From the NCBI RefSeq assembly GCF_001640025.1, contig NC_031672.1, forward strand, positions 682,001 to 746,000: a stretch of DNA of 64,000 nucleotides, read 5' to 3'. Source of the stretch: Sugiyamaella lignohabitans (Eukaryota; Ascomycota; Dipodascomycetes; Dipodascales; Trichomonascaceae). Under the pieces are notes generated by a model. That model searched no databases, was not told where the DNA came from, and worked only from the letters and a program-made list of their open reading frames with translations. The position numbers and the translations under genes are program-made. Below are positions 2,515-56,800 of the stretch, piece by piece. Numbering within the stretch: position 1 is the first letter of the stretch; every line of letters starts with the position of its first letter.

Positions 2515-2575
2515 CGACTCGAGTACAGCGAGAGGAGCAAACGGGCTCTGGGGCAGAGCCCCAGAGCCGGAGGCA
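2515..2575 (-). repeat. GC-rich double-hairpin element, half-unit A-B1 (site 1)
   Basis: Reads A then B1 on the minus strand. The hairpin CTGGGGC-AGA-GCCCCAG is intact, but the outer CCGGCGG block and the B1 arm carry substitutions, making this the most diverged half-unit. It starts 55 bp after the DUF3445 stop codon, with A nearest the gene. Confidence 0.85.
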
Positions 2576-2630
2576 GATTGGCCCGTCCACACTATTAAAC
2601 AGAAACAAAATATATATGAAAACTAAAATG

Positions 2631-3875
2631 CTACTTTTTCTTGATACCGTCAGATTCACGTTGGAGATAAGCCTTAACAGCGGGTCCCCACTCGTCTCTC
2701 TTCTTATAGTGGGCAACGTTGTCAGGGAGGTTGTCTATAGCCTCGACAAGTTCTAACGCACGGTCTTCTTCGCGGATTTGAGATAGCGGTGTGACGTATG
2801 TGCGGATGGTGAAGAGGAGATGCTTGGTATTGGGTAAACGGGTCAAGACCTGTCTTTCGACTCGGAGGAATACCTTGTCGAAGTCGAGCTCGTCAGGATT
2901 AATGGCCTTGAGCTTGGCACCTTTCTTGGCATGGTTGAGAGTGGGAGCATACAGATTAGTATGTCCCTGGATAGACCAGTTATATCGTTGGACCCACTTT
3001 CCAACCTCAATCTTGTGGAAAAACCTATCCATGGCGTTCTCAATCTTCTCTTTATAAAGAGGAACCGGTCCATGGATATCTTTCAAAGCGAGATTCAACT
3101 TCTCAGCTGGATTAAATCCCGAGGGGAATGCAAAAGATCCAGCACGAAGATAGTACTGCTGGGTCTTCTCGTCATAGATCAATATCAGGAAATCCTCCTC
3201 AAAGTGTTTAGCCAACAGACGGATCTTACTATCCATGCGTTCCTTCTTATCAGGAATAGACTCTTCGAAATCTTTGTCATACTGTTCAGAAGTGCTTGGG
3301 ATATAATCTTTCTTGATAGCATTATAGATGTATCCAGGTCGTCTTCTGGTGGTGTAGAAGTATTTAGGAAACTTCTTGGTGATGTAATTGACAAACATAT
3401 CGTATGTTTCGTCAACAGCCTCAATAGCCAAAGGATTAGTCAATACCGTATTATCACGGTGGTTCTCTACGATTTCGGCCCTAGCTTTTGTGATGTCCTT
3501 ATATGTATTCTCTAGTAACAGCCAGTCATTAGGATCCAGTGCTCTGAGGCCCATAGTCATAAAATATGGCCCTGGTTTATAAGGGCGGTATTTTCTGGGA
3601 TTTTCATTTTCCCAGTCAAAACTTCTTGAAACAGGAACAATAGCAGACGGATATCTTCCTGCAATATATCTTCCCTGTCGTACTTGATGCTGACTATCCT
3701 TACCAAAAGGATTATAATTTTTGTAAAGACGACGAGCAAGATAACTCATCAAAACTGCAAACATTCCAACAATCAGTTTCTCAATGTTCTCATAGCCTTC
3801 ACCTAGGAAGCCCTCGCCTTTCAAGAAGGAAACAACAACCCCGGCAACATGGGAAATATCCGGTAGTTCTGACAT
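2631..3875 (-). CDS. DUF3445 (heme-dependent oxidative N-demethylase-like) membrane-anchored protein
   Basis: A 414-residue protein. Residues about 25-50 (ENIEKLIVGMFAVLMSYLAR and on) form one probable membrane anchor near the N terminus. The rest matches the fungal DUF3445 pattern I know: KPGPYFMTMGLRALDPNDWL, a segment with RAGSFAFPSGFNPAEKLN and DIHGPVP, then NWSIQG, RVERQVLTRLPNTKHLLFTI and RTYVTPL. Family members are related to heme-dependent oxidative N-demethylases; the substrate here is unknown. The start is a true ATG with no nearer in-frame alternative needed, and length is normal for the family. It ends in a lysine-rich tail. A GC-rich element follows 55 bp after the stop. Confidence 0.85.
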   Translation of the reverse strand: MSELPDISHVAGVVVSFLKGEGFLGEGYENIEKLIVGMFAVLMSYLARRLYKNYNPFGKDSQHQVRQGRYIAGRYPSAIVPVSRSFDWENENPRKYRPYKPGPYFMTMGLRALDPNDWLLLENTYKDITKARAEIVENHRDNTVLTNPLAIEAVDETYDMFVNYITKKFPKYFYTTRRRPGYIYNAIKKDYIPSTSEQYDKDFEESIPDKKERMDSKIRLLAKHFEEDFLILIYDEKTQQYYLRAGSFAFPSGFNPAEKLNLALKDIHGPVPLYKEKIENAMDRFFHKIEVGKWVQRYNWSIQGHTNLYAPTLNHAKKGAKLKAINPDELDFDKVFLRVERQVLTRLPNTKHLLFTIRTYVTPLSQIREEDRALELVEAIDNLPDNVAHYKKRDEWGPAVKAYLQRESDGIKKK

Positions 3876-4382
3876 TTTGCTCTGTAGGAAATCTAGATTA
3901 AGCAGAGTTGTTGGATTAAAAGTCAGGAGATTTATTAATTTTCTGGGTCGTTTGATTCAATATATATCGGCCTGATGATATATGCGGGGCGGAGGTATGG
4001 CTTATCTGTCAGAATACCTCTAATCACTCTGATAGGTAGTACGTCTGATCCAGCTGCAAAGCTGGTGCCGTGACTTTTCACGGCTCCGCCGATCTTGCTT
4101 ATAAATTAAGCTCTTTTTGCCGCCAGCTGCAGACGTATTTTAAAGTTGAGATCAGCCAGTGTCGATCTTCAAGACAATACTGCAGAAACGTTAGATTAAG
4201 CAGAAATGCCATCTTCATTTAACGAATCAAGCCCTTTTCTTTTATTACTAATTAGTTGAAGCATATGCTTATTATAAGGTGAACTAAGGAAAAATGTGTT
4301 GAAGTCTAAGCCTAGAAAAGAAAATTCTGAAGTCTTTTGAAGAATAATGGGAGCTTTTGGACGGGTCTTCTTTTCCATGTCT
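3876..4382. other. Spacer with two adjacent perfect hairpins
   Basis: Upstream region of the DUF3445 gene and 3' flank of the next gene. It has TATATAT-type sequence near 3960 and two side-by-side hairpins at 4050-4083. A 60-codon ATG frame at 4378-4196 starts just after the neighbouring stop codon, but I see no reason to call it a gene. Confidence 0.5.
4050..4083. repeat. Tandem pair of perfect hairpins
   Basis: 4050-4065 is CCAGCT-GCAA-AGCTGG and 4068-4083 is CCGTGA-CTTT-TCACGG, two perfect 6-bp stems separated by TG. They are unrelated in sequence to the GC-rich family but similar in layout. Confidence 0.6.
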
Positions 4383-5723
4383 TCAGTCGACCAGCGTCTT
4401 ATTCAATATTTTCTTAATATGCAGTGTCGTCTCTTCCCATCTCCCCCTGCAGAGCTGTGGTACTGCTGACTTGGAATATTTATCACCAAAATCTTCACTT
4501 AGACAAGGGACCTTTCGGCCGAATTCTTCGAATATCATCCGGTACCGTGTCTGAACGCAGTCGCAGGGTTCTTCTGTGTAGCTTATTCTAAGCTCTTCAA
4601 TGCATGACTGTATCAAGAGAGTCTCTGGTTTAGCCGATCTTACTAGTCTGCCAAACAAAACTTTTAAAAAGTCTGCTCTCCATGTACGGAATTGAACGTT
4701 CGCGGTATCATGAAATCCGTTACTAAAGCAAGTCCTGGTTGAAATAACACGCTCAAGGGTCTTCTCAAGATTTGAGCTTTCAGCCATTAAAAACAAAACC
4801 GTCTCATATGCTATTTGACCGTAATCGTCAGGTGTTTTACACACCTCGATCAAGTTGTTGGTGGCTTCTTCGAGGAATTTGCTCACGTCCGAGTCGACAT
4901 TAGGAAACCCAGCAATGCGGTTAAGCAATCCACAGGTTTCATCAAAGCATTGTATGTAGTTTGGTAATAGCCTGAACTGTCTATCTTTCACAGGTATCAT
5001 GAGGGGCTTGAGGTACTCTAAACACCACCCAGGAGAATAAAGTAATTGGACTCCAGCCAGAACCATCTTGAGATGGCTATGCAATACTTCAACAAACTCT
5101 GGTCTTTCGTTAATTGACCTCAGGACTAGTACTTTGTTCAGGGACTGCTCCAATTGCTCTTCATCAAATGAATCCGTGAAGTAACTGCCCTCACTTCCGC
5201 TGTCGTTACACCATTCATCCGTCACTGATGTTTTCTTTGATCCAAACAAATGGATAGGAATGCCTGTCGAGGTTTGTATAGAGTTGGTTGTTGAGCTATC
5301 TGATAGTGTCTTTAACTTCACTTCAGGCTTAGATTGACATTCACTTGGCAGAGTGGAATCACTCTGACTGGAGTTGGACCGTTTTGCTGCTGGTCCTTTG
5401 ATTGGCGAATGCTCTAAAATTGTGTCTTCGTCGTCACTTCTTAAACAATTTCTGTTCCTCTCAGAACTCATAGACCTTGAGTATGATTTAATCGAACAAG
5501 AACCTTTAATTTTCTGCTCACTTCTTTTCATATCCACTTTGTTGCAACTGCGGCTACTCTCTGCTCTGCTTTTGGCTTTTCTAGGAGCACTTTGGCGCCA
5601 AAGGCTCATTACGCTGGTATGGGTTTTTTCTCTAGCACGATTGATGAAGTAAAGATATGTTTCCCTGATAGTGGTCTTTCCATAAAGGAAAGAGGGGGGT
5701 GTTTGCGAGCTAGCAGAAAGCAT
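4383..5723 (-). CDS. Unrecognised 446-residue protein
   Basis: A single long frame with an ATG at 5723; a second possible start is Met39 (MSLWRQSAPRKAK). The first 190 residues are rich in Ser, Lys and Arg and look disordered, with likely nuclear-localisation patches and possible phosphosites. Residues about 195-446 look globular and mostly helical (EEQLEQSLNKVLVLRSINER, EFVEVLHSHLKMVLAGVQLL, several spaced cysteines). I do not recognise the family. The frame uses no repeats and no antisense low-complexity sequence, which favours a real gene. The 60-codon frame that starts after its stop could be a misread or spliced C terminus, but no donor site is visible at the junction. Confidence 0.7.
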   Translation of the reverse strand: MLSASSQTPPSFLYGKTTIRETYLYFINRAREKTHTSVMSLWRQSAPRKAKSRAESSRSCNKVDMKRSEQKIKGSCSIKSYSRSMSSERNRNCLRSDDEDTILEHSPIKGPAAKRSNSSQSDSTLPSECQSKPEVKLKTLSDSSTTNSIQTSTGIPIHLFGSKKTSVTDEWCNDSGSEGSYFTDSFDEEQLEQSLNKVLVLRSINERPEFVEVLHSHLKMVLAGVQLLYSPGWCLEYLKPLMIPVKDRQFRLLPNYIQCFDETCGLLNRIAGFPNVDSDVSKFLEEATNNLIEVCKTPDDYGQIAYETVLFLMAESSNLEKTLERVISTRTCFSNGFHDTANVQFRTWRADFLKVLFGRLVRSAKPETLLIQSCIEELRISYTEEPCDCVQTRYRMIFEEFGRKVPCLSEDFGDKYSKSAVPQLCRGRWEETTLHIKKILNKTLVD

Positions 5724-6653
5724 CGCAGATTCCTAACTCAGTTACCGGGTTAGTTGCAAAATTGACGACTGGACACTGTTCAGTCAACGTATACGTGTTG
5801 TGTTACAAAGGAAACAAAATTCCTGAATAATCAACACTTTTATATTTCACCTGTATCCATCCCATAAGATATAAAGTTCCAGAGGTGGTTGTAACCATAT
5901 TAATACGGCTCTGTCGATCCCATCTGGATGCTCTGCTGTGATGTACAGGGTCTTAAGGTGATTCAACCGCTAGTTATGGGTAGATCCGCGAAGATCACGA
6001 GTTTCTGCAGTCAGATCAAAATTATACCCCACCACCTGGCTTGTTTAAAGGATGTTCCATTTTTTCCAGTTCTATAATCTAGCGACGATCTTGGTGTTTC
6101 AAGGCAAGCATATGCACTAGGAAGTACTCATTTCCTTCAATATTCTTATCTGGTTTGTTTATGATTTCAACATAGGCAAGCTTAGAACCTCAACTGCATT
6201 TTTAACTTGGATATTAAATAAGGTATACAAATCTGGTAGTTGAAAGAGGCACAAACCTATGCAAGGCTGGAAAATTTCCTAGTCAGTATGCAATAATTAT
6301 ATTTCAGCGATACTCACGGGCTTGAACCTTCCTGAACGCCATACAATGATTTCGTTCCAAGGCGTTTCCGTGGCGGACATCATTCACAACCTCGGATCTG
6401 ACAAGGCATTACCCCCGTTCTGTATTATTCGGCTGTGAGCCGAAAAATGTTTAAGACATTGTTGGCTGGAACCAGTCGTCCTGCCTTCTTTTAGGCATAC
6501 ATAAACAGAAGCTCATAAGGGATCCTCGAGTAAGATTACATCTGGACAGTTGAGAGGAGAGCTAAGAAGGAAGTCAAGAAATCCAACAAATGGAGGCAGT
6601 CTCGCTAATAATAAATTGATCTTGATAAATAAAAAAAATAATCATGCAGGTTA
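5724..6653. other. 930-bp spacer
   Basis: No gene, tRNA or GC-rich element is seen. It contains a perfect hairpin with a 7-bp stem and three-base loop, TTCGGCT-GTG-AGCCGAA, at 6428-6444. It lies between the upstream region of the 4383-5723 gene and the 3' end of the CCDC137-like gene. Confidence 0.5.
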
Positions 6654-7403
6654 TCATAATACATCACCACCCCTCTTTTGCTCCATTAGCGCTCTATAAC
6701 TTTGAATCACTCTATCACGCTCTTCCTCCAGAATCACTCGTCTTGCCAGAGAACCGGCAGATTTAGGGACGTTTCGTAGCAATTTTGTAGGCAAATTGAG
6801 TTCAGGTGGTCGATCAGCTACGTCTCCGAATTTGGGCTTTTTAGATTCGAGATGAGCCCAAGGATCAGGTGATGGCTCTCTTTTACCTTTCTTTGGTTTC
6901 TGGTCTTCATCGTCTTCATCATTGTCGTCATCGTCATCATCATCCTTCTTTTTCCTACTGTTAGCCTCATCTTTGGCACGCTTTCTGGCTTTCCTTTTAT
7001 CAGCTCTCGAAGGAGACCCCTTACGAGCTTTCACAAGTGGTAAAGCCTCGTTTACTCTACGAGAGAAGTCTGACATTCTTTCACCAGGCAAAATTTTTAA
7101 ATCAGCCGCTGGGGTAGTATTCGAAATCGACGCAACTGACGACGTACTCTCTCTTGTTCGAGAGCGACCTCTTTCTTCGCCTTCTGTTCCTTTTGCTACT
7201 TTCCCTTGCTTCTTATTTGACCAGTTCATGAGTCGTTTAAACTCTTTGGGCATATCATCCTCCATATCGTCTCCATTTTGGGTAGGCTTAGAAGCTGCTT
7301 TGTTCTTCTTGCTGACTTTTTTCGGGTTAATTAGAACACTGGGGGCAGTGTCAAAATCCACTTGCTTCCGCTTCAAAGGATTACGTGCCCTCTTTCTTGG
7401 CAT
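6654..7403 (-). CDS. CCDC137-like basic nucleolar protein
   Basis: A 249-residue, strongly basic protein starting MPRKRARNPLKRKQ. The ATG at 7403 is chosen because the frame further upstream offers only a TTG. Visible features: a lysine-rich N terminus, DMPKEFKRLMNWSNKKQGK, the motif LPGERMSDFSRRVNEALPL, a basic ADKRKARKRAKDEA block, a poly-Asp run at about 157-168, and KPKFGDVADRPPELNLPTKL. The last resembles the KFGEV...PPEL segment of animal CCDC137, a nucleolar/chromosome-periphery protein. The highly charged composition fits a ribosome-biogenesis or RNA-binding role. It is divergent to NOC3 with a 414-bp shared upstream region, which also suggests a nucleolar role. Confidence 0.75.
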   Translation of the reverse strand: MPRKRARNPLKRKQVDFDTAPSVLINPKKVSKKNKAASKPTQNGDDMEDDMPKEFKRLMNWSNKKQGKVAKGTEGEERGRSRTRESTSSVASISNTTPAADLKILPGERMSDFSRRVNEALPLVKARKGSPSRADKRKARKRAKDEANSRKKKDDDDDDDNDEDDEDQKPKKGKREPSPDPWAHLESKKPKFGDVADRPPELNLPTKLLRNVPKSAGSLARRVILEEERDRVIQSYRALMEQKRGGDVL

Positions 7404-7817
7404 CTTTTCAATAGTTCTAGAGAATAAATAAATTAATTCTGAAATGTTCAAATTATTTCAGCATAGTTTACGATTGATGGGCGAATTTTTTTTATGAGAA
7501 TGTTATTCTATAACTGAGGTTGCAGAGCGAAATTTGCAATTTGATACAAATTATCACAATTAAGACAACAATTGACCGAATAGAAAGGGTCGAGATTAAA
7601 ATATATCATTAGCTGAGTATTTAAAAGATCCAATAGTAGAGGACTTATTTTACTCTTGTGAAATAATATCGAATTGTGCACCTTGTTCAAGCTCTTTCTC
7701 AGGGCTTTGATCACACGGCTGTCCATACAGATCAGATCTGAATTTTTTATGCATGTCAAAAATAAATATTTTGGCACAGTTGTAGTTCAGTAACAAACTA
7801 CTTATTTATTATATACA
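7404..7817. promoter_or_regulatory. Shared divergent promoter of two nucleolar genes
   Basis: The 414 bp between the CCDC137-like gene and NOC3. It carries two near-copies of one T-rich motif, GAATTTTTTTTATG at 7483-7496 and GAATTTTTTATG at 7740-7751, similar in feel to the A/T-rich elements of ribosome-biogenesis promoters. Function is inferred. Confidence 0.4.
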
Positions 7818-9890
7818 ATGGCCAAAAGACCCAGAGGAAAGGTGGCTGAGAAGCTTGCAAAGCGGTCTAAAGACAGGCACACTGCAGACTCAGCTCTTAG
7901 TTCGTCTTCATGGTCTGCTTTGGGTGAGGTAGATGAAGACCCCAATTACCCAGACAGTGATCAAGAACAGGACTATGACAGTAGACCAAGGAAATTTCAA
8001 GTTGCTGATGACGAACGGGTTGAACGATTGCCAGTTAAGACCTTAGAGGGAGAAGTTAAACGAGTAATGGGAAAAAAGGAGAAGAAAATCCAAAAGGAAG
8101 TTGAAGAAGATAAAGAGGACGAGTCTGAATCAGAGGAAGACGAATCTTCCAAAAGCGAGGAAGTCACTACAGAACAAAAGGCTTCTGGAGACGGTGAAGA
8201 TGATAGTGATTCTGAGCCCGAAGATAACGACCCAGTTTCTCTCAACCAGAAGCTTTTGGAGCTGAAGGAGATCATTGCAGAGACAGCAGAGAAGCTAAAC
8301 GAGGATCCAGAGGAACATATTAGCAAGTTGAGAGAGTTACGGGAATTGATCGCATCTTCGAAGCACTTTAAAGCTAAGCAACTTATAATATTGTCGTTGG
8401 TTCAGATATTCCAAAGTCTCATACCCGGTTATCGTATCCGCCCTCTTACAGAAAGTGAACAGAAGGAAAAAGTATCGAAAGAGGTCAGAAAATTACGAAA
8501 CTTTGAAGAGAGTCTATTATTGAATTACAAAGCATATATCTCTACTCTGCAAACGTTTTCAAGGAAAGGGAAAAGTTCGCAGGTTGGAACAGTTAAATAC
8601 TCCCTTGCCAGCGTCTCTATCCTGGCGGCATGTGAGCTCCTTGAATCAGTTCCCTATTTTAATTTTAGAAGCGAACTAGTTCAAATCATCGTTGACAAAT
8701 TAAGCACCAAAAAAAACGATGAAACGTTTTATAAATCTATTCAGACACTGGAGACTATATTCAAGGCCGATGAGGAGGGACAAATCAGTTTTGATTTAGT
8801 GAGGCTGCTATCCAAGATGATCAAGGCCCGAAAATATAAAGTTGATGAAAAGGTCATTAACAGCTTGCTTCATCTGAGACTCTTAACCGAACTTGCAGCT
8901 AGAGCTGATTTGGAGAAGGTACAGAGGTTTGTCGAAGATGAGGGACCCAAAAAGAAGAAAGATAGAGTCCACCTTAGTAAAAAGGAAAGGAAAGCACGAA
9001 AAGAGCGCAAAGCTATTACCGAAGAAATGATGAGGGCTGAAACAGCCGTCTCAGCAGAAGAAAGAGAGAGACTCCAAGGAGAAACTCTAAAACTTGTATT
9101 TATTCTTTACTTCAATATTCTTAAGGAGCGATCAGAAAAGCTTATTGGCGTAACATTAGAAGGCTTGGCAAAATTTGCACACTTGATCAATGCGGATCTT
9201 TTTGGTGATCTATTGGAGGTTTTGCGTGAGCTTATCTTGGAAAGACAAAAACGCATAGTAGGCGGCGAGTACGAATTCAAGGAGTCCGCTACCCGAGAGT
9301 CGCTTTTATGCATCGTAACAGCTTTTGCACTCCTGTCGGCTCAGGCTGGTGTTGGTGAGTCTATGAACCTTGACTTGACCTTTTTTGTTAACCATTTTTA
9401 CTCGAGTCTTTATTCTTTATCATTAAATGCCGATATCGAATTCTCCCACAAGACCCTTCGACTCGATGATCCATTAAAGGCAGCATCTATAACACCCAAT
9501 AAGTACAAGGTTAACATTTCGACGGAAACTGAGATGATGATCAGAGCATTTGAATTTATCTTTTTCCGCCAAAGATCCATAGGACCCAATAGGGTTCAAT
9601 CATTTGCTAAACGACTAGCAATTTCGACTCTACATATGCCCGAAAAGTCGTGCGCTGCCTCTCTAAGAATTCTTGATAAAATGACCAAGAAGTTCAATAG
9701 TATGCCTGCCCTCTATTCTACCGAAGACCGTGTTGCAAACGGCGTTTATAATATGGAAGTCGATGATCCTGAGCACTCGAATCCAGGAGCAGCAACTATC
9801 TGGGAGACTGTACTCTTAGAAAAACATTACTCTCCAATGGTTGCCAAAGCAGCACAAGCAGTACCCAAAGGTGCTATTGTTCCCACGTAA
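7818..9890 (+). CDS. NOC3: Nucleolar complex-associated protein 3 (Noc3)
   Basis: A 690-residue protein of the Noc3 family. In yeast Noc3 works with Noc2 in export of pre-60S ribosomal particles and also binds origins in pre-replicative complex formation. The N terminus (1-150) is charged, with acidic blocks and basic nuclear-localisation patches. The Noc N-domain follows with LRELIASSKHFKAKQL, IILSLVQIFQSLIPGYRIRP, then KEVRKLRNFEESLLLNYKAY. A CBF/Mak21-type helical domain occupies about 400-640 (LKLVFILYFNILKERSE, LLEVLRELI, GESMNLDLTFFVNHFYSSLY, then RQRSIGPNRVQSFAKRL). The length is close to yeast Noc3. The start is a good ATG (ACAATGGCC) and no intron is needed. Confidence 0.93.
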   Translation: MAKRPRGKVAEKLAKRSKDRHTADSALSSSSWSALGEVDEDPNYPDSDQEQDYDSRPRKFQVADDERVERLPVKTLEGEVKRVMGKKEKKIQKEVEEDKEDESESEEDESSKSEEVTTEQKASGDGEDDSDSEPEDNDPVSLNQKLLELKEIIAETAEKLNEDPEEHISKLRELRELIASSKHFKAKQLIILSLVQIFQSLIPGYRIRPLTESEQKEKVSKEVRKLRNFEESLLLNYKAYISTLQTFSRKGKSSQVGTVKYSLASVSILAACELLESVPYFNFRSELVQIIVDKLSTKKNDETFYKSIQTLETIFKADEEGQISFDLVRLLSKMIKARKYKVDEKVINSLLHLRLLTELAARADLEKVQRFVEDEGPKKKKDRVHLSKKERKARKERKAITEEMMRAETAVSAEERERLQGETLKLVFILYFNILKERSEKLIGVTLEGLAKFAHLINADLFGDLLEVLRELILERQKRIVGGEYEFKESATRESLLCIVTAFALLSAQAGVGESMNLDLTFFVNHFYSSLYSLSLNADIEFSHKTLRLDDPLKAASITPNKYKVNISTETEMMIRAFEFIFFRQRSIGPNRVQSFAKRLAISTLHMPEKSCAASLRILDKMTKKFNSMPALYSTEDRVANGVYNMEVDDPEHSNPGAATIWETVLLEKHYSPMVAKAAQAVPKGAIVPT

Positions 9891-10354
9891 ATAATATACA
9901 AAGTTGCATTTTTAATAGAATACTCCCTGCATCTGAGATCTGCAAGCCCGCCCTGCATCAGCCTAGTGAATGTCATGAAGCTGTAATGCATGCAGATCAA
10001 TAAGGATCATAGATGGCTCTGTAAAATCCCTTATCTTGAACGGAGACACCTGGCAATATTTATTAGCTTAAAAGAATAAAACCAAAAAAGAAGTAATACA
10101 TATGCTTATTGGGACCAAGAGTTTTGCAATGCTTGTTTGCCATCAACAGAATAGAGCCGGAATAAATTCAAGGAACTTTCTCAGCCGTATAATTGCATCA
10201 TTACGCGGCCAGCTCACGTCAGGCCCGTTGGGCCGTGCTAAATCATCTCCTTACCACTATGGATCAGATTTATAATTGTCGTGAAGTAATTTGTATAGGC
10301 ACTAAAGATGTAAAACAAGATTTGCCTTCTTATCTAATGCTAAGACTGTGAATA
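9891..10354. other. Spacer, promoter of the Zn2Cys6 regulator
   Basis: No gene seen. It contains a small perfect hairpin with a three-base loop, GGCCC-GTT-GGGCC, at 10222-10234 next to CGG/CCG triplets that could be a zinc-cluster binding site. Confidence 0.45.
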
Positions 10355-12424
10355 ATGAAGGGTGAAAAATTCATCTTATACTCAAAACCTGATGGCAAGG
10401 TCACCAAAGATTTTGAGCGGAGAAAAAGGGTCTCTTACTCCTGTACTCTGTGTAAGAAACAAAAAATCAAATGTGATCTTGAATTTCCTTGCGGCACATG
10501 CAGAAGCAAGAAAAGGCCACATCTTTGTAAATTTGAACGTAGCAATGGTATAAACAATTCGCAAGATGTGCTGACGACGACGTCTGAGGGTACCGCCAAT
10601 AGCGACAATGAGACAGGAGATGGGGATCACACAAAAGATATGGAAAAAGTCCCTCCTGATCAAAGGCTGGTATTATATGGAGAAGTCTCAAGTGGCACCA
10701 CCAATTATCTAGGCCCTTGGCATGCCGATGTTGCAGCTGCTCACAAGGAGCCAGGGGTACGCGTGATACTGGACGACTTTGAAAAGCGGAAAAATCAGAA
10801 ATCTTTAGACTGTATGAGACCCTGGCAGCAATACGACAAAGGAACAAATGCAACTACCTATATAGACCCCTTCCTTTGCGGAATTGACGAGCTATTAGTC
10901 CAACACCTGCTTAACACATACTGGCAATTTATCAACCCAATTGAAAGTATATTGGACCCAAATTCGTTTTGGGATAAGTTTGATCGATACAACACTGATC
11001 CTACCTTAATAGACTGTTGCGACCGGCCTATATTTTCAGCATCTCTTTGGCTTATGCTAAGCTACTCCAGCCGATCTTTGTTACCATCAGATTGGACAAT
11101 CGAGAGATTACAATCTGAGTTGTCTTCAGGAACACTCATGGGAACGGTAAGCTCCACGCTACAACAGGAAGCGAGGTTTGTAGCCGATCCGTGTGAATTC
11201 TTCCTTTATTGTGCGGAAAATTGTCTTACTCATGCCCAAATTTTCAAATCGGTTAAAAACATCGACTCTCTCACGGTGCTTATGTTGTATATTTCTTACT
11301 TACACGATGGCAGTGAGAGAAATTGGGCTTCCTGGACACTTTTAGGCATGGCATCTAACGCAGCACAAAGGCTGGGCCTATTCCAGGACCCTAGCTCCCT
11401 TAGTGCACTGTCTTCGACAGATAGTGATTTTCTCGAACAGGAACGAAAGTCAAACCATCGTAGAAATCTATACTGCGCTTTCATCACAATGAATGCACTT
11501 TATTCGGTAGACCTAGGCCAGATGCCCATAGTGGTACGAGAGTCATTGTGCACTATTAAAACGGAGCGGAAAGTCATGAAACAATTGAACGATGGGGAAT
11601 TTATTTTGGCTAAATATGATATTGCAAAGACTCTAAGCAAGTCCTTGGAAGCTACATATGCCTTTTATTCCTCAGACAATCCTCACATATGGCACCAAAA
11701 AGAATATACACAAGCAGTAGAGGACATGGAAGCTAAAATCAACTCTCTATGGGAAAATTTATCTGGAACATCTTTGGCATTACGGGATGGAATTACAGGA
11801 GATTCAAGTATAAAGCTTGAAATCGCACTAAAACTTGAGCATCCCCCCGTTCCTTCAAAATTTTTTTTTCAAAGATACATAGTAGATACCCTGATACACA
11901 AAGCAAGATTTGTCTTATTCAGACCGTTCTTACGTTATCGAGGTAGTATAAATCCAACCATGGCATCGTTTCAAGCGAAATGTCTTTCATCAGCACGGGC
12001 AATGTTAGAAAATCAATTTGCAGTTAACAACAACCAGGATATAATGGGATTTAACAAGTTTCGTTGGAATTATGTATTTTCCCACGCATTTCAGGCGGCA
12101 GTCATATTAAGCTTACAAAAAGATTTTAACAGGTCAGATTGGGAACTTCGGCTGGTCCAAGGATCAGCCCAACTATACTACAATATTAGACGACACGCAG
12201 GATGTGCAGCTGCTAAAGCACATTTAGTGCTATCCAATCTACTGGGTCCAAACGCCGTTGATATGGATGATCAAAGTTCTGCTGACAACAGTCACTTTTA
12301 TTGTATAACCCCAGAGGTAGTTCAGGACGGGATTTCTTGGAAACCTGAAAATCTACCTTCTGATATAGAGTCACTTGAAAATGATTTCTTTGCTTCTGTA
12401 CTAGGAAATCAGAGGGCTTGCTAA
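10355..12424 (+). CDS. Zn2Cys6 fungal transcription factor
   Basis: A 689-residue regulator. The zinc cluster uses Cys30, 33, 40, 46, 49 and 58 (CTLCKKQKIKC, then PCGTC and HLC), preceded by a basic RRKR. The linker to about residue 170 is polar. The fungal-specific middle homology region follows from about 185 (HLLNTYWQFINPIESILDPN), with the typical segments ASWTLLGMASNAAQRLGLF and RRNLYCAFITMNALYSVDLG. This class binds CGG-containing sites and controls metabolic genes. The next gene downstream, 1.05 kb away on the same strand, is a Dal5-type permease, so a local regulator-transporter pair is possible but unproven. The target is unknown. Confidence 0.92.
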   Translation: MKGEKFILYSKPDGKVTKDFERRKRVSYSCTLCKKQKIKCDLEFPCGTCRSKKRPHLCKFERSNGINNSQDVLTTTSEGTANSDNETGDGDHTKDMEKVPPDQRLVLYGEVSSGTTNYLGPWHADVAAAHKEPGVRVILDDFEKRKNQKSLDCMRPWQQYDKGTNATTYIDPFLCGIDELLVQHLLNTYWQFINPIESILDPNSFWDKFDRYNTDPTLIDCCDRPIFSASLWLMLSYSSRSLLPSDWTIERLQSELSSGTLMGTVSSTLQQEARFVADPCEFFLYCAENCLTHAQIFKSVKNIDSLTVLMLYISYLHDGSERNWASWTLLGMASNAAQRLGLFQDPSSLSALSSTDSDFLEQERKSNHRRNLYCAFITMNALYSVDLGQMPIVVRESLCTIKTERKVMKQLNDGEFILAKYDIAKTLSKSLEATYAFYSSDNPHIWHQKEYTQAVEDMEAKINSLWENLSGTSLALRDGITGDSSIKLEIALKLEHPPVPSKFFFQRYIVDTLIHKARFVLFRPFLRYRGSINPTMASFQAKCLSSARAMLENQFAVNNNQDIMGFNKFRWNYVFSHAFQAAVILSLQKDFNRSDWELRLVQGSAQLYYNIRRHAGCAAAKAHLVLSNLLGPNAVDMDDQSSADNSHFYCITPEVVQDGISWKPENLPSDIESLENDFFASVLGNQRAC

Positions 12425-13159
12425 ATTATTTTGAATATATGAATATAATGCAAATGGTGAATCATTTAATGCATTTTTCTCAAATTCGGCACTAAGCCAT
12501 GGCGATTTCTTGGCCGAAAAATTATTTTGCGCTAGGGTATTCAGTATGAACGACGGTTTATTTAGCGTATTGCTTTGTAAACTTTAGTTCTCTCCTTGCA
12601 TGTAATGTAGTCATTAAAGGCAGGGCTTGCAACATTTTCTTGAAGAGTTCGATGCCAAGATACCCGGAGAAGCGTTAGCCGATAGCTTAAAGCTAACAAG
12701 TACAGTCTGTTTGATTGGATTGGTATGGTTCTATAATTTACTCGTTCGCAAATCCTTGGAATAGTGGGATATTAAATTTAACTAAAATCGAATTGTTATC
12801 TACGCTCCACGAGTGTTGTTTATGTACAAATGACAATTGACAATTGAGTGGGATGAAATGTCAGATGAACTATCAGAGATACCAACCAATTGACGGAACT
12901 AGTACTCCGCTATTGGATTATGCATGTAGGTACAGCACTGGGCAAAATCTGGACTAGTTCAAATGTTTTAGCCGAGATTCAGTGGCTCCTCCAAACGAAA
13001 GAGGCTTTAAATCTTAGCTAACAGCCCCTTTCTCCACGAAGCGTGGCGTCCGTCCTAAAAATATTTTATTCAAACTCAAAAATTCTTTATTGTGGGCGGC
13101 CACATCCATATTAAGTCCATCATAATTCATAGTTACTAGCACGCCATCTCGCCTGTCGT

Positions 13160-13231
13160 GATAAGCGGCATGCATGTCTGTCTGTTTATGCAACCTTAAA
13201 GGGTTGAAATGTCGTAATCTTAAATGATAAG
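13160..13231 (+). promoter_or_regulatory. Two GATAAG sites upstream of the Dal5-family permease
   Basis: GATAAG at 13160-13165 and again at 13226-13231, 66 bp apart and about 250-320 bp before the ATG. Paired GATAAG is the classic site of GATA activators in nitrogen catabolite repression, which controls DAL5-type genes in yeast. Use here is inferred. Confidence 0.5.
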
Positions 13232-13418
13232 GTGCATAAGAATTGCTTTTTACAATCTGATCTTAGTGCAACGGTCGGGATGATTAGATCTCAGCAGCCA
13301 CTTGTCAACGAGATAATTGAACGAAATGGCGTCAGCATTCAGCCCAGTAGCCACCATAGAAATGCCGTAAAGGTGGAGAAAAGCGGCGGTGATTACGGGA
13401 ACTGAGGCTGAAGAGAAC

Positions 13419-13425
13419 TATAAAA
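13419..13425 (+). promoter_or_regulatory. TATA box of the permease gene
   Basis: TATAAAA, 55 bp before the ATG at 13480. Confidence 0.5.
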
Positions 13426-13479
13426 TGTGAGCAACAACCTCGTACAAATCTGTCCAGACAAACTGTACTCATAATAACT

Positions 13480-15175: not shown

Positions 15176-15549
15176 TTTAGTTTATACAAAATAAATATGT
15201 GTTACGATTTAGTCTACATGGCTCGTATTTGTCTGAAAATGGGTATTTGTTTCCTGAAATAAACAATTGATATCCTTCTCCATATAGCGAGACAGACTTC
15301 AATGGAGTCAGGAAAGGTAGAACCTTGTGTTGGAAACTAGGGTGTCCAGCTTGAGATTGTAGTCAACCACATATTACCAACAACATCACGTGCCGAAATG
15401 CAGATCAGGTCATTCATGTTCGCGTTCTGACCGTGTCGTCTAAGTTACCAGTGGAAAGCTCTTTCCTGAGAATTGCGCTAGCTAAATTTACTTGCTAGTA
15501 TTAGTTTGAAGAGAATTCCAATATGGAAGTGTGATTGCCGCTTGTAAAT
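15176..15549. other. 374-bp spacer
   Basis: 3' flank of the permease and promoter of the GCP5-like gene. No other feature is seen. Confidence 0.5.
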
Positions 15550-17979: not shown

Positions 17980-18137
17980 AATGCCACTGATCCAGGTTAA
18001 GCATATTTAAATCATAGTCATTAATCCTAATAATAAAAAGTAACATTTTAGTATCATTAATTATGGTCTGTCTAATATACACATTCATAACATTAGAAAC
18101 ATTACAATTTCGTGCGCAGGACGATAAATAAAAAAAG

Positions 18138-18735
18138 TTAACGAACTTGATAAGGAGGCTGAGCCTGATTTGGCTGGCCCTCATATGCTCCAGCATACTG
18201 CACTGGGGGCTGTTGTTGCGGGGGAGGTTGCTGAGACATGTCCATGGAATGTGGAGGTGGCTGTTGTTCATAATAACCTTGGTTTGGATATTGACCATAG
18301 CCTTGATAACGTTGCTGCTCCTGGTAAAAACCATCATACCTATTTGGAGGAGCTGGTTGCATTGGCGGCTGTTGGCCCGGTTGCAGAGAGGGCAAAACTG
18401 GAACATTATACGCAGCGTACTGTTGTGGAGGTACTTGCTGTTGTTGCTGTTGATGAGGAGGTGGAGGAGGTGGCTGTTGTTGTTGTTGCTGCTGACCATA
18501 ATAACCTGAGTAATACGGATATCGGTATTGTTGTGGAGGGGGCAGCTGCTGTTGCTGTTGAGGTTGATGGGGTGGAGGGTATCCGTAGAATTGATTCTCA
18601 TTAAGTGGAGGCATAGGTTGTTGAGCAACATGTGGTACAGATGGTAGTCTTTGATGTTGAGGGGGAGCACCCCCTCCTACATGAACCATTTCTGGTGGGC
18701 CATAATTTTGGGTCATTTGAAGCTGTTGCGGTTGT

Positions 18736-18782
<47 letters not shown>

Positions 18783-24315: not shown

Positions 24316-25160
24316 ATGGAAACAGTACCAGTACTGCAGTCGCTTGTAGGCGCATTATCGGAAAGCATCGATGGTTTAGAGGAGATTCTCAGTCCGCTGC
24401 TGGACCAGGATCTCACCCAACTGGCGGCCTCCCTGCCCGGCCACGCTGAGCAAGCAAACCTCTACGTCCTGCTGGCCTATACTTTGGACGCTCTGTTGTT
24501 CTGTAAGTCCGTTTCTGTTGCCCTCGGTGCCTCCGGCGGCTGGGGCTCCGCCCCAGACCCCGCTGCTCCGCCCCAGACCCCGCTGCTCCTCTCGCTGCGC
24601 TCGAGTCGGTCCGTCGACGGTCCCGCAATCTCCTGCGAAGCAGGAGCCACGGGGTCTGGGGCGGAGCCCCAGCCGCCGGAGGCAACGTGACAACCCCGGA
24701 ATCTCTTCTAACGCGGATAGCACATTTGAAGTCGACTGGAACCAATACCGCTGGCCACCCTATTATGAATGAGCTCGAGAGAGTCAAGTCTTATATGAAC
24801 AAGGTCAAGGAACAGACTGGAGAACCCGTTAAGAAACCCCAGCGAGCGCGGGTGGTGGACAAAGAGGCCGCTAATCGGTTTATTCAGAATGCTCTCAGTG
24901 ACAGCAATGATAAGACCGAGGTGGTGTTCTCTGGAAAGCATACCAGACTCGATGGAGATGAAACAAAGGACAAAGAAGACGACAAAGAAGGGAAAGCTGA
25001 GGAAAGAGATGTCGATACCACAGCTCCCAAGAAAAGGGCTGCTAAGAGCAGCTCAGAAGCTCCTCCAAAAAAGAAAAGCAACAAAAAGGCAGTAGTGAGA
25101 GCCAAGAAGAAGGCTGCTAAAGAAGCCGCTGCCGAGGCTGCTGCAAGTGCCAGAGAATAG
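24316..25160 (+). CDS. LRP1: Exosome cofactor Lrp1/Rrp47 (C1D family), with a GC-rich element in its intron
   Basis: Exons 24316-24502 and 24721-25160 give 208 residues. The 218-bp intron runs from GTAAGT to TTCTAAC and GGATAG. Splicing joins LYVLLAYTLDALLF to SHLKSTGTNTAGHPIMNEL, the conserved core of the Sas10/C1D domain (about 10-95), followed by ERVKSYMNKVKE. The lysine-rich tail (about 125-208, with repeated KKK and alanine-rich stretches) fits RNA binding. In yeast Lrp1/Rrp47 partners Rrp6 in nuclear exosome processing of rRNA and snoRNA 3' ends. A complete double-hairpin element fills most of the intron; read without splicing, it yields spurious Pro/Gly-rich peptide. Confidence 0.9.
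24528..24684. repeat. Full-length GC-rich double-hairpin element A-B1-centre-B2'-A' (site 2), inside the LRP1 intron
   Basis: 157 bp. The left half has an internal tandem duplication of about 20 bp (CTCCGCCCCAGACCCCGCTG, twice). The right half is the B2 arm CTCCTGC-GAA-GCAGGAG followed by the inverted A arm with loop GGA. The intron donor and branch/acceptor lie outside the element. Confidence 0.95.
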
Positions 25161-25624: not shown

Positions 25625-25685
25625 TGCCTCCGACAGCTGGGGCTCCGCCCCAGACCCCGTAGCTCCTCTCGCTGCGCTTGAGTCG
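25625..25685 (+). repeat. GC-rich double-hairpin half-unit A-B1 (site 3)
   Basis: Plus-orientated, A first. The outer block reads CTCCGACAG instead of CTCCGGCGG, but the CTGGGGC-TCC-GCCCCAG hairpin is exact. It lies 464 bp past the LRP1 stop. Confidence 0.9.
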
Positions 25686-26487: not shown

Positions 26488-28282
26488 ATGACAGCTAAGC
26501 CCGTATCGGAAGAAGTCGAGAAAATGAAAACTTCAACATGGGGTGGTAGTGAAAAGAAAGAAACAGATATGGATGGGTTAGGAGGCTTGGAGTCTGGCTT
26601 AGCTGGATCTGGAACTGGTACAAGTGAGAACGATATTTCTGACATCGAAGCGTCGGAGAGGAATTTCGATAAAGGGAAGACCTTTGAATCTGCGAAGCCG
26701 CCATTTGAATCGAGTGAAGTGGTACAACCAGATCAAGCTGAGTCAAAGGATGAACAAATTTCGGCTCCAGTAACAGCCCCTCCATTGGTAGGACCTCCTC
26801 CTAATGGCGGACTCAAAGCATGGCTAGTTGTGGCCGGAGGATTTTTCGCATTGTTCAATTCATGGGGAGTAGTAAATGCATTTGGATCATTCCAAGCTTA
26901 TTATAGTACGAATCTGCTGAAAAATGAGAGTGACTCGGCAATTTCGTGGATCGGAGCTATCCAAGGTTTTATTATTGTTTCAACTGGTATTATTGTAAGT
27001 GCAAATGGTACAGGCGTTCCTCGAGTTGGTGTCTTCTGATTTTCATTACTGACGAAGAATAATGAACCATAATTTCGGAATATGACTAACAAGATTTAGA
27101 GCGGACGATTGACAGATAGTGGATATGGCAGGTACATGATCTTTGCGGGATCATTCATGGTATCCTTTGGCTATATGATGACAAGTCTGGCCACCACCTA
27201 TTACCAGGTGCTTCTAGCACAAGGATTTTGCATCGGAATTGGTGCGAATTTGCTATTCCAGGTCACGGTGGCCATAGTAGCACAGTACTTTTCCACCAAG
27301 CGTTCTATGGCCATTGGCATCACCGCCAGTGGAAGGTAAGCATTTCACACTGTCCTCCCCTCACGGAACGACTCGAGCGCAGCGAGAGGAGCTACGGGGT
27401 CTGGGGCAGAGCCCCAGCCGCCGGAGGCACACCTACAACCAGTAAATCTAACAAATAATCCAGCTCGCTGGGAGGTGTTATATACCCAATTATGGTGAAC
27501 AAGCTCATAGGTGAAGTGGGATATCCATGGGCGTCGCGAATCCTTGGATTTACTGGTAAGTTATCTGTATCTCAGACTTAGCATTTTTCAGTTACCAAAA
27601 ACTAACGTTGTAAGTATTCGGTACCAGTATTGTGACATGTGCATTCGTGATTCCTCGGCTGCCCCCTCGAAGATCCGGGCCATGGATAGACATTCCCTCG
27701 CTGCGAGACGCTCCATTCCTGCTGTTTTCGTTTGGTTGTTTCTTCGGATTCCTGTCCATTTATGTCCCGTTATTCTACATTCCATCGTACACGATCCATT
27801 TGGGCTACAGCCAGTCTACTGGTTTGTATATGTCTTCAGTTATCAATGCAGCATCTATTGCAGGCCGTTTGCTGCCCAATCTAGTGGCAGACCGCATTGG
27901 CCCGTTTAACACACTGGTACCCTGTTCGTTCGGAGTGGCAGTCCTGTCATTTGCATGGATAGGTGTTCATAATATAGGTGGTATTATTGCATTTTGTTTG
28001 TTCTTTGGGTTCTTCTCTGGGTCAAACGTGTCTATCCCACCGAGCTGTGTCGCATCTCTCACTCCCAATCTGGCTATTATGGGCACCAGAATGGGAATGA
28101 GCTTTTTCATATCTTCATTTGGCACGCTAGGAGGTGGACCTATTGGCGGAGCTCTTATCACCAGAGACAACGGGGACTATTTGGATGCTCAGCTGTTTGC
28201 GGGCATTGCCGCAACCATCTCCTTCGTCTGCATCTTGTCTGCCAGATTTCTAATTAAAGGCTTTGCTCTTGAGAAATGCTAG
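26488..28282 (+). CDS. Monocarboxylate-transporter-like MFS permease (MCT/Mch family), four exons
   Basis: Exons 26488-26994, 27100-27335, 27464-27555 and 27615-28282 give 500 residues. Introns start GTAAGT, GTAAGC and GTAAGT and carry GACTAAC, TCTAAC and ACTAAC. Splicing joins STGII to SGRLTDSGYGRYMIFAGS, ITASG to SSLGGVIYPIMV, and RILGFT to VFGTSIVTCAF. The first 105 residues are a Ser/Glu-rich cytosolic tail. Then about twelve membrane helices follow, starting GLKAWLVVAGGFFALFNSWG, which fits the MCT family motif. Yeast Mch proteins have no proven carboxylate substrate, with Mch5 carrying riboflavin, so the cargo is unknown. Intron 2 contains a GC-rich half-element in antisense. Confidence 0.9.
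27369..27429 (-). repeat. GC-rich double-hairpin half-unit A-B1 (site 4), in intron 2 of the MCT gene
   Basis: Minus orientation, thus antisense to the host gene. B1 is CGACTCGAGCGCAGCGAG, and the A hairpin loop is AGA. The intron's donor and branch point are outside it. Confidence 0.95.
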
Positions 28283-28336: not shown

Positions 28337-28390
28337 CCTCCGGCGGCTGGGGCGCTGCCCCAGACCCCGTGGCTCCTGCTTCGCAGGAGC
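28337..28390 (+). repeat. GC-rich double-hairpin half-unit A-B2 (site 5)
   Basis: Plus orientation, in the 145-bp gap between the convergent MCT gene and PEX3. It begins 54 bp after the MCT stop. The A loop is GCT and the B2 arm is CTCCTGC-TTC-GCAGGAG. Confidence 0.93.
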
Positions 28391-28427
28391 TTATCGTCGG
28401 GACGTGGCATATAGGTGTAAATATTAT

Positions 28428-32938: not shown

Positions 32939-32999
32939 TGCCTCCGGCGGCTGGGGCTGCGCCCCAGACCCCCTGGCTCCTCTCGCTTCGCTCGAGTCG
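32939..32999 (+). repeat. GC-rich double-hairpin half-unit A-B1 (site 6)
   Basis: Plus orientation, 46 bp after the VWA gene stop, A first. A loop TGC; B1 has the GCTTCGC core. Confidence 0.95.
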
Positions 33000-33082
33000 G
33001 GCGTACGGTCCCCTCCGTTAAGTTAACAGAGAATCTGTTAGATTATTGAGATAAATATCAGAAAATGCTGATCCCCTGCGCC

Positions 33083-33142
33083 CGACTCGAGCGAAGCGAG
33101 AGGAGCCGGGGGTCTGGGGCAAAGCCCCAGCCGCCGGAGGCA
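33083..33142 (-). repeat. GC-rich double-hairpin half-unit A-B1 (site 7)
   Basis: Minus orientation, only 5 bp from the Nudix gene stop codon, with A against the gene. A loop is AAA on the plus strand. It faces site 6 across 83 bp, together forming an open inverted pair in a convergent gap. Confidence 0.95.
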
Positions 33143-33918: not shown

Positions 33919-34669
33919 GATTTTGATTCCTGTGGATATTATAACTGACTTCTGTAGATCGAGCCGAGCCGATATCTTACTGATAATCCCGGAGGTTAGG
34001 GTTCAACCCCGCATTTACTCGATAAGACTGTTTCCTCCGGACATTTTTAATGGCCTCCAGTCCCAATTGATACAATTTTAACAATTTCGAGCAAAATAAC
34101 TTGTTCTTTAGTTATAAATGGGAGTGAAAAATTCCATTTGATGCTTGTTTCTGACTGATCAATTTTGTTCACTTGGGTTACACCCTAACCGCTATCTTGC
34201 GTTAATTTTCAGGGGTACATAGCTCCGTTATCAACTCTAGACTTTTGCGGTCCTATTTTTCATTTTATGAAGTCGTGAGTCTAGCCATTCTGTTGATCTT
34301 GGTTGCATAATAGAGAAACAAATAATGTAAAGCATTATCCCATGAATGACAGGATAGAGTTATCAATGCGAAAATGTGGCCATTAAGCTCTCTTCGCGGA
34401 CAATATGCCAGCGGGATTGTGATTTGGATCATTTATTGCCAGATCTAATACTGCTAACCTACCAGTTGGGCTACATTGGGATAGTAAATAAGAAAAACTG
34501 CTGCTGCTATTTCGCGGATTCAGAGACCCTCGACGTAACGACTCGAGCGCAGCGAGAGGAGCAGCGGGGTCTGGGGCGGAGCCCCAGCCGCCGGAGGCAG
34601 AATGGGGCTATATTCAATGCAAAATAATTTCAATTAAAAATGGAAGGTATTGTTCATGACAGGCAGGTG
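33919..34669. other. 750-bp spacer
   Basis: Promoter of the Nudix gene and 3' flank of the fasciclin gene with element 8. A tRNA-like GGTTCAACCCC near 34000 is not part of a foldable tRNA. Confidence 0.5.
34539..34599 (-). repeat. GC-rich double-hairpin half-unit A-B1 (site 8)
   Basis: Minus orientation, 70 bp after the fasciclin-gene stop, A first. Loop GGA on the plus strand. Confidence 0.95.
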
Positions 34670-46391: not shown

Positions 46392-46527
46392 TGCCTCCGG
46401 CGGCTGGGGCGTTGCCCCAGACCCCATTGTGCTCGCTTCGCGAGCGCGTGTTGGTTCCGGGAGAGTTTAGGATGCTCGCGAAGCGAGCACAACGGGGTCT
46501 GGGGCAGCGCCCCAGCCGCCGGAGGCA
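46392..46527. repeat. Full-length GC-rich double-hairpin element A-B3-centre-B3'-A' (site 14)
   Basis: 136 bp between convergent genes: 56 bp after the kinase stop and 24 bp before the next gene's stop. Each gene reads into its own A arm. Loops are GTT (left) and AGC (right); both B arms are the type 3 hairpin. Confidence 0.96.
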
Positions 46528-49832: not shown

Positions 49833-49974
49833 TGCCTCCGGCGGCTGGGGCTCCGCCCCAGACCCTGGTTGCTCCTGCTACGCAGGAGTTTCTCGTGGCA
49901 CTGTCGACACAACGACTCGAGCGAAGCGAGAGGAGCAACCAGGGTCTGGGGCGGAGCCCCAGCCGCCGGAGGCA
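49833..49974. repeat. Full-length GC-rich double-hairpin element A-B2-centre-B1'-A' with extended flanking palindrome (site 15)
   Basis: 142 bp. Left B arm is type 2, right is type 1. Outside the element the inverted symmetry continues for 10 bp (GGGACAGACC on the left, GGTCTGTCCC on the right). Confidence 0.95.
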
Positions 49975-51944: not shown

Positions 51945-51988
51945 TGCCTCCGGCGGCCGGGGCGCAGCCCCGGACCCCACTGTGCTCG
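51945..51988 (+). repeat. GC-rich double-hairpin half-unit A with truncated B3 (site 17), covariant stem
   Basis: 98 bp after the RVS161 stop, A first. The stem reads CCGGGGC-GCA-GCCCCGG: the usual outer T-A pair is changed to C-G on both sides. B is cut after GTGCTCG. Confidence 0.93.
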
Positions 51989-52035
51989 TTCCTGGTGTTT
52001 ATGAAAAAACTGAGCGGTTTTGCTTTGGAGGGTTG

Positions 52036-52089
52036 TGCCTCCGGCGGCCGGGGCGTTGCCCCGGACCCCGTTGTGCTCGCTTCGCGAGC
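52036..52089 (+). repeat. GC-rich double-hairpin half-unit A-B3 (site 18), covariant stem
   Basis: Same compensatory stem as site 17 (CCGGGGC-GTT-GCCCCGG) with a different loop and a full B3 arm GCTCGC-TTC-GCGAGC. It is a direct repeat of site 17, 91 bp downstream. Confidence 0.95.
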
Positions 52090-52197
52090 GGCTTGGACCG
52101 TGAAGCTGAGGTTCTGTTAGAAGGGTTGCTGGTTCCCTGTGATCTGGTAGTTTGCATGTCTTTTCCCGCTTTTCCAAATTAAAAATTAGAAAAAAAA

Positions 52198-52228: not shown

Positions 52229-53080
52229 CAAAAAAAACAAAAACAAGAAGAACGCCTCCATCTGTACGGAGAAGTACTAACAATTGTAAAACCTCTGATA
52301 AGAGCCAGGTCGTTCGGGTCTGTTCATTTGTCCATTCACGGGCACACTTCTTATAATCAGCTGACCATAATTCTAACAGCTATTGCAAGAATTTAGGTCA
52401 TCTAAAAAGCGATGAAAATAAGCAGTTCTGTGTCATTCGTAACACATCTGTCAAATATTTATCCTTACTATCCAATTTTTTGGCATTATAATCTAGACTA
52501 CGGGGTTGAGGAAGATTACAGAGGGGAATGTTCGTCGTCTACAAAATTAATAAAGACAGAAAGCTGATGATGTAGTTTTGCTAAAAAGGTGTTTGAATAG
52601 TTAAGGTACTCTCTGTGCAAACTCTCTTGATTATGATTTATAGTTCAGACTGCGTTAAACCAGTCTAGGATTCATGCTAATAAGCCACAGGCTGTAAGCT
52701 GCAGACAATCTGAGGATTGCCCTAAGTAACAGGGTCAATACAGCACTTAGTACTATTTACAAGTAAATCTCAGGTGAGCAATAGAATTCGACGTTATTTT
52801 GAGTGTTTTTATACTAAAAATATGTATTTTAGAGATGCATCTTGTTTAAATAGTGAGAATACTCTGGTCCGAGCAGCATTGGCATTGTTTACACCATGCA
52901 CGCATCGGCAGAAGATAAGCCTAAACGGCCAATCTGTGCATTATCAAACTCCACTCACCAAACACACCAGCACTCGAACACCTGGCACAAAGACACCCTC
53001 CTTCAACTCAATCAACAAACAAACACCCGATCTAATCCCTACACACCTCCAACAAAACCACCCACCGCCCACACGCCCTC

Positions 53081-53139
53081 CTCGAGCGCAGCGAGAGGAG
53101 CAACCAGGGTCTGGGGCGGAGCCCCAGCCGCCGGAGGCA
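53081..53139 (-). repeat. GC-rich double-hairpin half-unit A-B1 (site 19)
   Basis: Minus orientation, 105 bp after the CipC-like gene's stop, A first. The outer end of B1 is clipped (no CGA before CTCGAG). Confidence 0.94.
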
Positions 53140-53964: not shown

Positions 53965-54113
53965 TGCCTCCGGCGGCTGGGGCTCCGCCCCAGACCCTGG
54001 TTGCTCCTCTCGCTGCGCTCGAGTCGTTGCGTCTGGCGGTCTTGAACGATCTGGAATCTCCTGCGAAGCAGGAGCAACCAGGGTCTGGGGCGGAGCCCCA
54101 GCCGCCGGAGGCA
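53965..54113. repeat. Full-length GC-rich double-hairpin element A-B1-centre-B2'-A' (site 20)
   Basis: 149 bp. Both A arms share the GACCCTGGTTGCTCC linker and TCC/GGA loops. Inverted symmetry continues 5 bp outside (GACAC on the left, GTGTC on the right). Confidence 0.95.
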
Positions 54114-56255: not shown

Positions 56256-56311
56256 CTCCTGCGAAGCAGGAGTAACCAGGGTCTGGGGCGGAGCCCCAGC
56301 CGCCAGAGGCA
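56256..56311 (-). repeat. GC-rich double-hairpin half-unit A-B2 (site 21)
   Basis: Minus orientation; B2 CTCCTGC-GAA-GCAGGAG, A loop GGA, one change in the outer block. Confidence 0.92.
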
Positions 56312-56524
56312 CACCGCCCATCCGAGAACCGACCGCAGCCCGTATTGAAGTTACCGTTAAAAAATAGCCTGATAATAATTAAAAAAAACACCTGCACCAT
56401 TTCCCAGCTAAGACACTGTTTCACTCATACCCTTTCGAGCTAGTCACTGTGGACCGCGGTGCGTCGATCTACTGTTTACATAGTTCCTGTTCTGTTCACT
56501 ACCAATGCTTTCACTGGCGGGTGT

Positions 56525-56580
56525 TGCCTCCGGCGACTGGGGCTCCGCCTCACACTCTGGTTGCTCCTGCTTCGCAGGAG
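56525..56580 (+). repeat. GC-rich double-hairpin half-unit A-B2 (site 22), diverged
   Basis: Plus orientation. The right side of the A stem is mutated (CCGCCTCACAC), so this hairpin is broken, whereas B2 is intact. With site 23 it forms a 171-bp full-length element. Confidence 0.88.
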
Positions 56581-56612
56581 GGGCAGGGGTCTTAGTTTTA
56601 GAACCCGCGTGA

Positions 56613-56695
56613 CGACTCGAGCGAAGCGAGAGGAGCAGCCAGGGTCTGGGGCGGAGCAGCCAGGGTCTGGGGCGGAGCCCCAGCCGCCGGAGGCA
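56613..56695 (-). repeat. GC-rich double-hairpin half-unit A-B1 with internal duplication (site 23)
   Basis: Minus orientation, 83 bp, longer than usual because a roughly 20-bp segment (CAGCCAGGGTCTGGGGCGGA) is tandemly duplicated. Confidence 0.93.
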
Positions 56696-56740
56696 TAGTG
56701 GCCATTCACAGTTGTCTCGCAGGAGTAAGTGGCTGGTAAT

Positions 56741-56800
56741 GACTCGAGCGGAGCGAGAGGAGCAGCCTGGGTCTGGGGCGGACCCCAGCCGCCGGAGGCA
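56741..56800 (-). repeat. GC-rich double-hairpin half-unit A-B1 (site 24)
   Basis: Minus orientation, 56 bp after the DAHP synthase stop, A first. The A hairpin is shortened on one side (CTGGGGCGGACCCCAG). Confidence 0.93.

Follow-up and report, generated by a model that had tools for sequence, protein, structure and literature searches.

The window analysed here is a stretch of 64,000 bases from the genome of the yeast Sugiyamaella lignohabitans (C1:682001-746000 in contig NC_031672.1; 15,932,016 bases in four contigs). Among its genes lie the half-elements of one very abundant hairpin-repeat family, present as single halves or as inverted pairs in which the B hairpins face each other. Their location just past gene ends is real, and single halves near stop codons turn their A hairpin towards the stop above chance, with exceptions. 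Positions without a prefix count from the first base of the window. Pfam matches back the gene names PEX3, Nudix, fasciclin, kinase, BAR, MFS, DUF3759, class-II DAHP synthase and HODM_asu-like, the last initially annotated as DUF3445, the older name of HODM_asu. An open reading frame (ORF) named VWA and an exon named LRP1 have no Pfam match, and both names are unconfirmed.

The hairpin-repeat family

Each half is about 60 nt long and carries two hairpins. The first is arm A of the initial annotation (TGCCTCCGGCGGCTGGGGC...GCCCCAG); the second, arm B, occurs in four kinds, labelled B1-B4 in this analysis. Allowing up to three mismatches, the core of A was found 3,417 and 3,366 times on the two strands of the 15.93-Mb genome, a lower bound of about 6,800 in all, and a reversed control pattern gave 0 matches. 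A profile built from 21 halves matched 192 times in the window and C1:200001-400000, merging into 31 and 157 halves, respectively. The 177 halves scoring at least 20 comprise 55 pairs and 67 single halves. Neighbouring halves with B ends facing are separated by 40 bp or less in 41 of 70 cases, compared to 3 of 69 with A ends facing. The resulting inverted pairs, commonly about 136-157 bp, carry A at both outer ends, and outward of A the sequence is loosely C-rich over about 13 bases. A rare reverse arrangement occurs at locus L008 (1470-1603), where two A-facing halves are 16 bp apart and one has B towards a stop at 55 bp.

Elements are strongly clustered. Only one half lies in window positions 1-20000, three in C1:260001-290000 and none in C1:330001-360000, while other stretches hold 8-19 per 10 kb. 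Bins of 10 kb that contain no half or a single one have a noncoding GC of 0.39, those with at least eight 0.50. Single halves do not mark the edges of large GC-rich islands, as at distances over 60 bp their B side is no richer in GC than their A side (63 halves).

The A stem is perfect over at least five pairs in 162 of the 177 halves; at the sixth position counted from its loop, 152 halves have a T-A pair and 8 a C-G pair. The C-G pair is seen in both tandem halves at 51945..52090. The B stem is perfect in 77 of the 177 and is built from differing sequences (B2, B3, B4), mainly CTCCTGC/GCAGGAG, GCTCGC/GCGAGC and GCTCCGC/GCGGAGC. Framed by GC...GC and read on the B>A strand, the B loop is GNA in 157 of 177 halves, with a free middle base (GAA 108, GCA 29, GGA 13, GTA 7), and the A loop is GNA in 119. 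GNA loops closed by at least two G-C pairs are described as forming exceptionally stable DNA mini-hairpins (PMC4686876). These features suggest, short of proof, that it is structure that is being kept, perhaps in single-stranded DNA.

Rfam at gathering scores returned three tRNAs and no other match, and one distant search each of plasmid and phage collections gave no match to the element. A bacterial source for the A core was considered on the basis of one exact match in a genome-contig collection and rejected, as we regard that match as chance. A resemblance of the element to Pol III A and B boxes was weighed by eye only. Two identical tRNA genes lie at 61807-61879 and 61954-62026, 147 bp apart from start to start.

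Position and orientation at gene ends

The initial annotation listed distances from stop codon to A for the half-elements past genes, and re-measurement reproduced them. On the minus strand, a single half at 2516..2575 lies A first 55 bp past the HODM_asu-like gene (stop 2631, A end 2575), another at 34540..34599 lies A first 70 bp past the fasciclin-domain gene (34670/34599), and a third at 53080..53139 lies A first 105 bp past the DUF3759 (CipC-like) gene (53245/53139). Two tandem plus-strand halves, both A first, occupy 51945..52090, 98 and 189 bp past the gene for a BAR-domain (RVS161-type) protein (51846/51945), whose closest named relative comes from Trichomonascus vanleenenianus (90%). 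The minus-strand half at 56740..56800, also A first, is 56 bp past the DAHP synthase stop at 56857, a distance that holds only if the last exon is a small spliced one, as a reading by eye suggests; an inverted pair (56525..56695) follows beyond it. A distant A-first half at 25625..25684 (plus strand) is 464 bp past the stop at 25160 (25160/25625).

Between the convergent MFS and PEX3 genes, a plus-strand half at 28337..28391 is A-first 54 bp from the MFS stop (28282/28337, from the ORF end and arm position; named MCT initially). The same half is B-first 36 bp from the PEX3 stop at 28428, in agreement with the opposite sense first noted there. Two inverted pairs also lie between convergent genes. 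The first, 32939..33142, is between stops 32892 (the VWA ORF; 32892/32939, 46 bp) and 33148 (Nudix; 33148/33142, 5 bp), and the second, the B3-B3 pair 46392..46527, is between the kinase stop 46335 (46335/46392, 56 bp) and its partner's stop 46552 (46552/46527, 24 bp). Both had been counted as orientation evidence. However, they are uninformative, because the outer ends of B-facing pairs are A by construction. Two further pairs are the B2-B1 pair 49833..49974, with 10 extra complementary flanking bases, and the B1-B2 pair 53965..54113, far from stops.

Placement past stops exceeds random expectation. Exclusion of the 2 of 122 blocks that overlap called coding sequence leaves 120 noncoding blocks. 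Of these, 23 are no more than 75 bp from a stop, compared to a mean of 6.4 and a maximum of 14 in 200 random placements within 5 kb. Exon or coding-sequence starts show a small excess (9 versus 4.1, maximum 9, within 50 bp; 10 versus 6.3, maximum 13, within 75 bp), to which introns contribute. Among 31 genes, a set from which singles with B towards the gene were excluded beforehand, the distance from stop to A is 23-135 bp with a median of 55. Between stop and element, TTTT occurs in 17 of the 31 versus 13.5 expected from element-free stops, and a TATA-type motif in 8 versus 6.3. The first 30 bp after the stop have an AT fraction of 0.56-0.65 with an element and about 0.64-0.72 without, and the 12 bases next to A are GC-rich, with an AT fraction of 0.33-0.37. 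Since AT-rich 3' motifs occur at their normal rate before the element, it mostly stands behind the usual motifs. An element lies within 200 bp of 37 of the 92 scored stops.

The initial annotation also claimed that half-elements always read A first from the finished gene. This holds for most single halves near stops, but not always. Within 200 bp of the nearest stop, A faces the stop in 6 of 7 window singles (p = 0.12, not significant alone); the sole exception is the half at 28337 described above. Of 16 such singles in the other sampled DNA of this genome, 14 are A-first (two-sided p = 0.0042). That sample consists of C1:200001-400000 and five of nine further loci, the other four holding pairs only, and its gene models are uncurated ORF and hexamer calls. 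The exceptions there are L005 (148 bp) and L008 (55 bp, where the A ends of two halves face each other). Beyond 200 bp the orientation of singles is random, with 6 of 8 A-first in the window, 18 of 43 elsewhere and 24 of 51 in total. Near and far singles therefore differ (20/23 versus 24/51, Fisher p = 0.0018), although close neighbours (51945/52036, R 117462/117543 and the two L008 halves) mean fewer independent events than counted.

Elements within predicted introns

A number of the elements close to exon starts fall within predicted spliceosomal introns, in the part between the donor and the branch site, as at C1:209436-209640. In the window, a B1-B2 pair at 24528..24684 sits in predicted intron 24503-24720, 25 nt after the donor and 36 nt before the acceptor. 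A minus-strand single half at 27370..27429 sits in predicted intron 27336-27463 of the MFS gene and reads B then A in the gene sense. The five introns with one pair are alike: the pair starts 19-27 nt after the donor in four and 53 nt after it in the fifth, and ends 29-41 nt before the acceptor in all five. Eight pairs show a branch-site signal, and every one of them has a donor on the correct side as well. Among the ten singles with such a signal, the order in the gene sense is B then A in eight and A then B in two. Just two of the ten have a donor signal in addition, and both of these are B then A; the single at 60798, one of the eight, is also counted as a 3' copy, so some of the ten may be non-intronic.

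Genome-wide motif counts with exact patterns agree with this arrangement. A ends lie near the branch-site motif CTAAC 514 times versus 155 for its reverse-complement control GTTAG, and near the donor motif ACTTAC 218 times versus 21 for the corresponding control GTAAGT. For exact B1 ends across the whole genome, the branch-site motif gives 52 versus 53 in the control, no excess, and the donor motif 16 versus 8, a slight excess. These counts fit A, not B, bordering the branch site, but they pool pairs and singles and are an impure test of single halves. They suggest some hundreds of such intronic ends.

We considered a fixed direction of pairs in introns and rejected it: seven of eight read B1 then B2 in the sampled DNA, and genome counts gave no clean support (247 B1 and 148 B2 halves near the branch-site motif, 115 B1 halves near the donor motif). 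Pairs within 200 bp past stops, in six B2-B1 rows and three B1-B2 rows with one convergent-gene pair in both, are too few for a direction to be read.

The RNA sense of intronic singles, mostly B then A, is opposite to that of the 3' copies. "A towards the gene" is thus a better fit than one transcribed sense, and the rule shared by both settings is better put as A towards the stop or the branch site.

Origin and meaning of the polarity

The family most resembles bacterial REP/REPIN elements. According to Bertels and Rainey (PMC3116915), REPINs are inverted REP doublets that form hairpins, and singlets are less conserved remnants. Both families are short, palindromic, extragenic and multicopy, with inverted doublets of predicted hairpin fold alongside singlets and a short preferred doublet spacing, here the excess of B-facing neighbours. 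Unlike the bacterial elements, the present family is found in a eukaryote genome with predicted spliced genes, and a BAR-domain protein with fungal relatives, rather than in a bacterial chromosome; it also occurs in introns, its halves are about 60 nt with two hairpins, and its singlets near stops are oriented towards the gene. Mitochondrial GC clusters and double-hairpin elements are known in fungi and are likewise GC-rich hairpins between genes in an AT-richer yeast genome. In contrast, the present elements are found among spliced genes of nuclear type, on contigs of several megabases. Titles and abstract openings of top-ranked matches in the open-access literature, with few subscription papers covered, yielded no description of nuclear elements of this kind. 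The available part of the T. vanleenenianus genome paper (PMC13130702) does not mention palindromic repeats.

We see about an even chance that this is a selfish hairpin family tolerated beside 3' ends and in introns, with a polarity arising from insertion or loss and not from 3'-end formation. Such a family would be structure-dependent DNA spreading through a single-stranded hairpin form, as proposed for bacterial REPINs. It would settle, or survive, where the coding frame, 3'-end signals and splice signals stay intact. Its polarity could arise at insertion beside a 3'-end region or through loss of copies in the opposite orientation, and would not indicate 3'-end formation by the element. Both the mobility and the cause of the polarity are what we infer here.

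Several observations weigh against this explanation. The facing of A towards the stop is left unexplained by the present data, and the polarity has the exceptions L005, L008 and 28337. Mobility finds no support in target-site duplication, as exact flanking repeats do not exceed those of shuffled partners (45 of the 55 pairs, with outer ends intact). The idea that single halves are decayed pairs was rejected: on the B side, a clear degenerate partner is seen for just 2 of the 67 (scores 39 and 27), and the mean partner score there is 15.5 versus 15.9 on the A-side control, no excess. The REPIN model predicts more diverged singlets, and the single halves are not clearly so, with a median hidden Markov model (HMM) score of 50.6 (65 halves) versus 53.9 for paired ones (112; p = 0.057). 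Finally, B1, the most frequent B kind, has no perfect stem.

A more specific version, which we hold possible but doubtful, is a nuclear REPIN-like system of yeast, in which the hairpin is moved as single-stranded DNA, the GNA mini-hairpin loops fix the strand that is recognised and the polarity of insertion follows where the transcription unit ends.

The initial annotation had left two readings, insertion into a 3'-end signal or a terminator or 3'-end former with A then B as its working sense. Placement past stops stands, and insertion next to 3'-end signals remains a candidate, but a terminator with one transcribed sense is not supported and we consider the terminator reading unlikely. In its favour are the median of 55 bp from the stop in 31 genes, the excess past stops, the 20/23 polarity, the somewhat less AT-rich stretch between stop and element than after element-free stops, and pairs 32939-33142 and 46392-46527, which would serve convergent genes with A first for each. 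However, the stretch before the element holds AT-rich 3' motifs as frequently as usual, 55 of the 92 stops lack an element within 200 bp, intronic halves mostly read on the opposite strand, and gene-facing copies show no extra conservation (median HMM score 49.2, n = 17, versus 51.0 for distant singles, n = 50; p = 0.33).

This lack of added conservation near genes also counts against the rather improbable case of a host-selected hairpin, which at some genes would block read-through or protect the 3' end of the mRNA beyond an ordinary poly(A) signal. The position of the element behind AT-rich motifs that it does not replace is consistent with such a role, as is the very stable predicted fold of one 136-nt pair (-130.5 kcal/mol, RNA parameters). 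Nevertheless, 51 of 74 singles lie more than 200 bp from any scored stop, and long stretches, such as the first 20 kb of the window with its one half, are nearly empty.

A classical miniature inverted-repeat transposable element (MITE) of a DNA transposon, with A as its terminal inverted repeat, is very unlikely. Such an element would be short, noncoding and multicopy with inverted ends, as the pairs of about 136-157 bp are. Unlike in MITEs, no target-site duplication was found in those 45 pairs, and single halves are common (67 of 177), with the two decayed partners noted above. Highly improbable is an introner, a repeat that creates new introns and leaves the 3' copies as by-products: like introners, the repeat lies within spliceosomal introns of many genes, with the genome-wide excess of A ends at branch-site and donor motifs, but its splice signals lie outside the repeat, with neither found in 99 of 110 pair-strand tests, most sampled blocks are outside recognised introns, and 7 of 11 element-holding intron calls measure 48-68 nt without the element (the remaining four comprise a call of 85 nt, one that holds two elements and two long calls that are doubtful), within the 45-102 nt of 12 of 33 element-free calls, the others of which are longer.

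If the polarity arises at insertion, the element would be a natural recorder of transcription ends or of the open DNA behind them. We know of no earlier REPIN-like family from a nuclear genome, and in that case this would be, to our knowledge, the first. If it is instead the product of selection, the thousands of copies would act as natural constructs that reveal which hairpin orientation a yeast tolerates at 3' ends and in introns.

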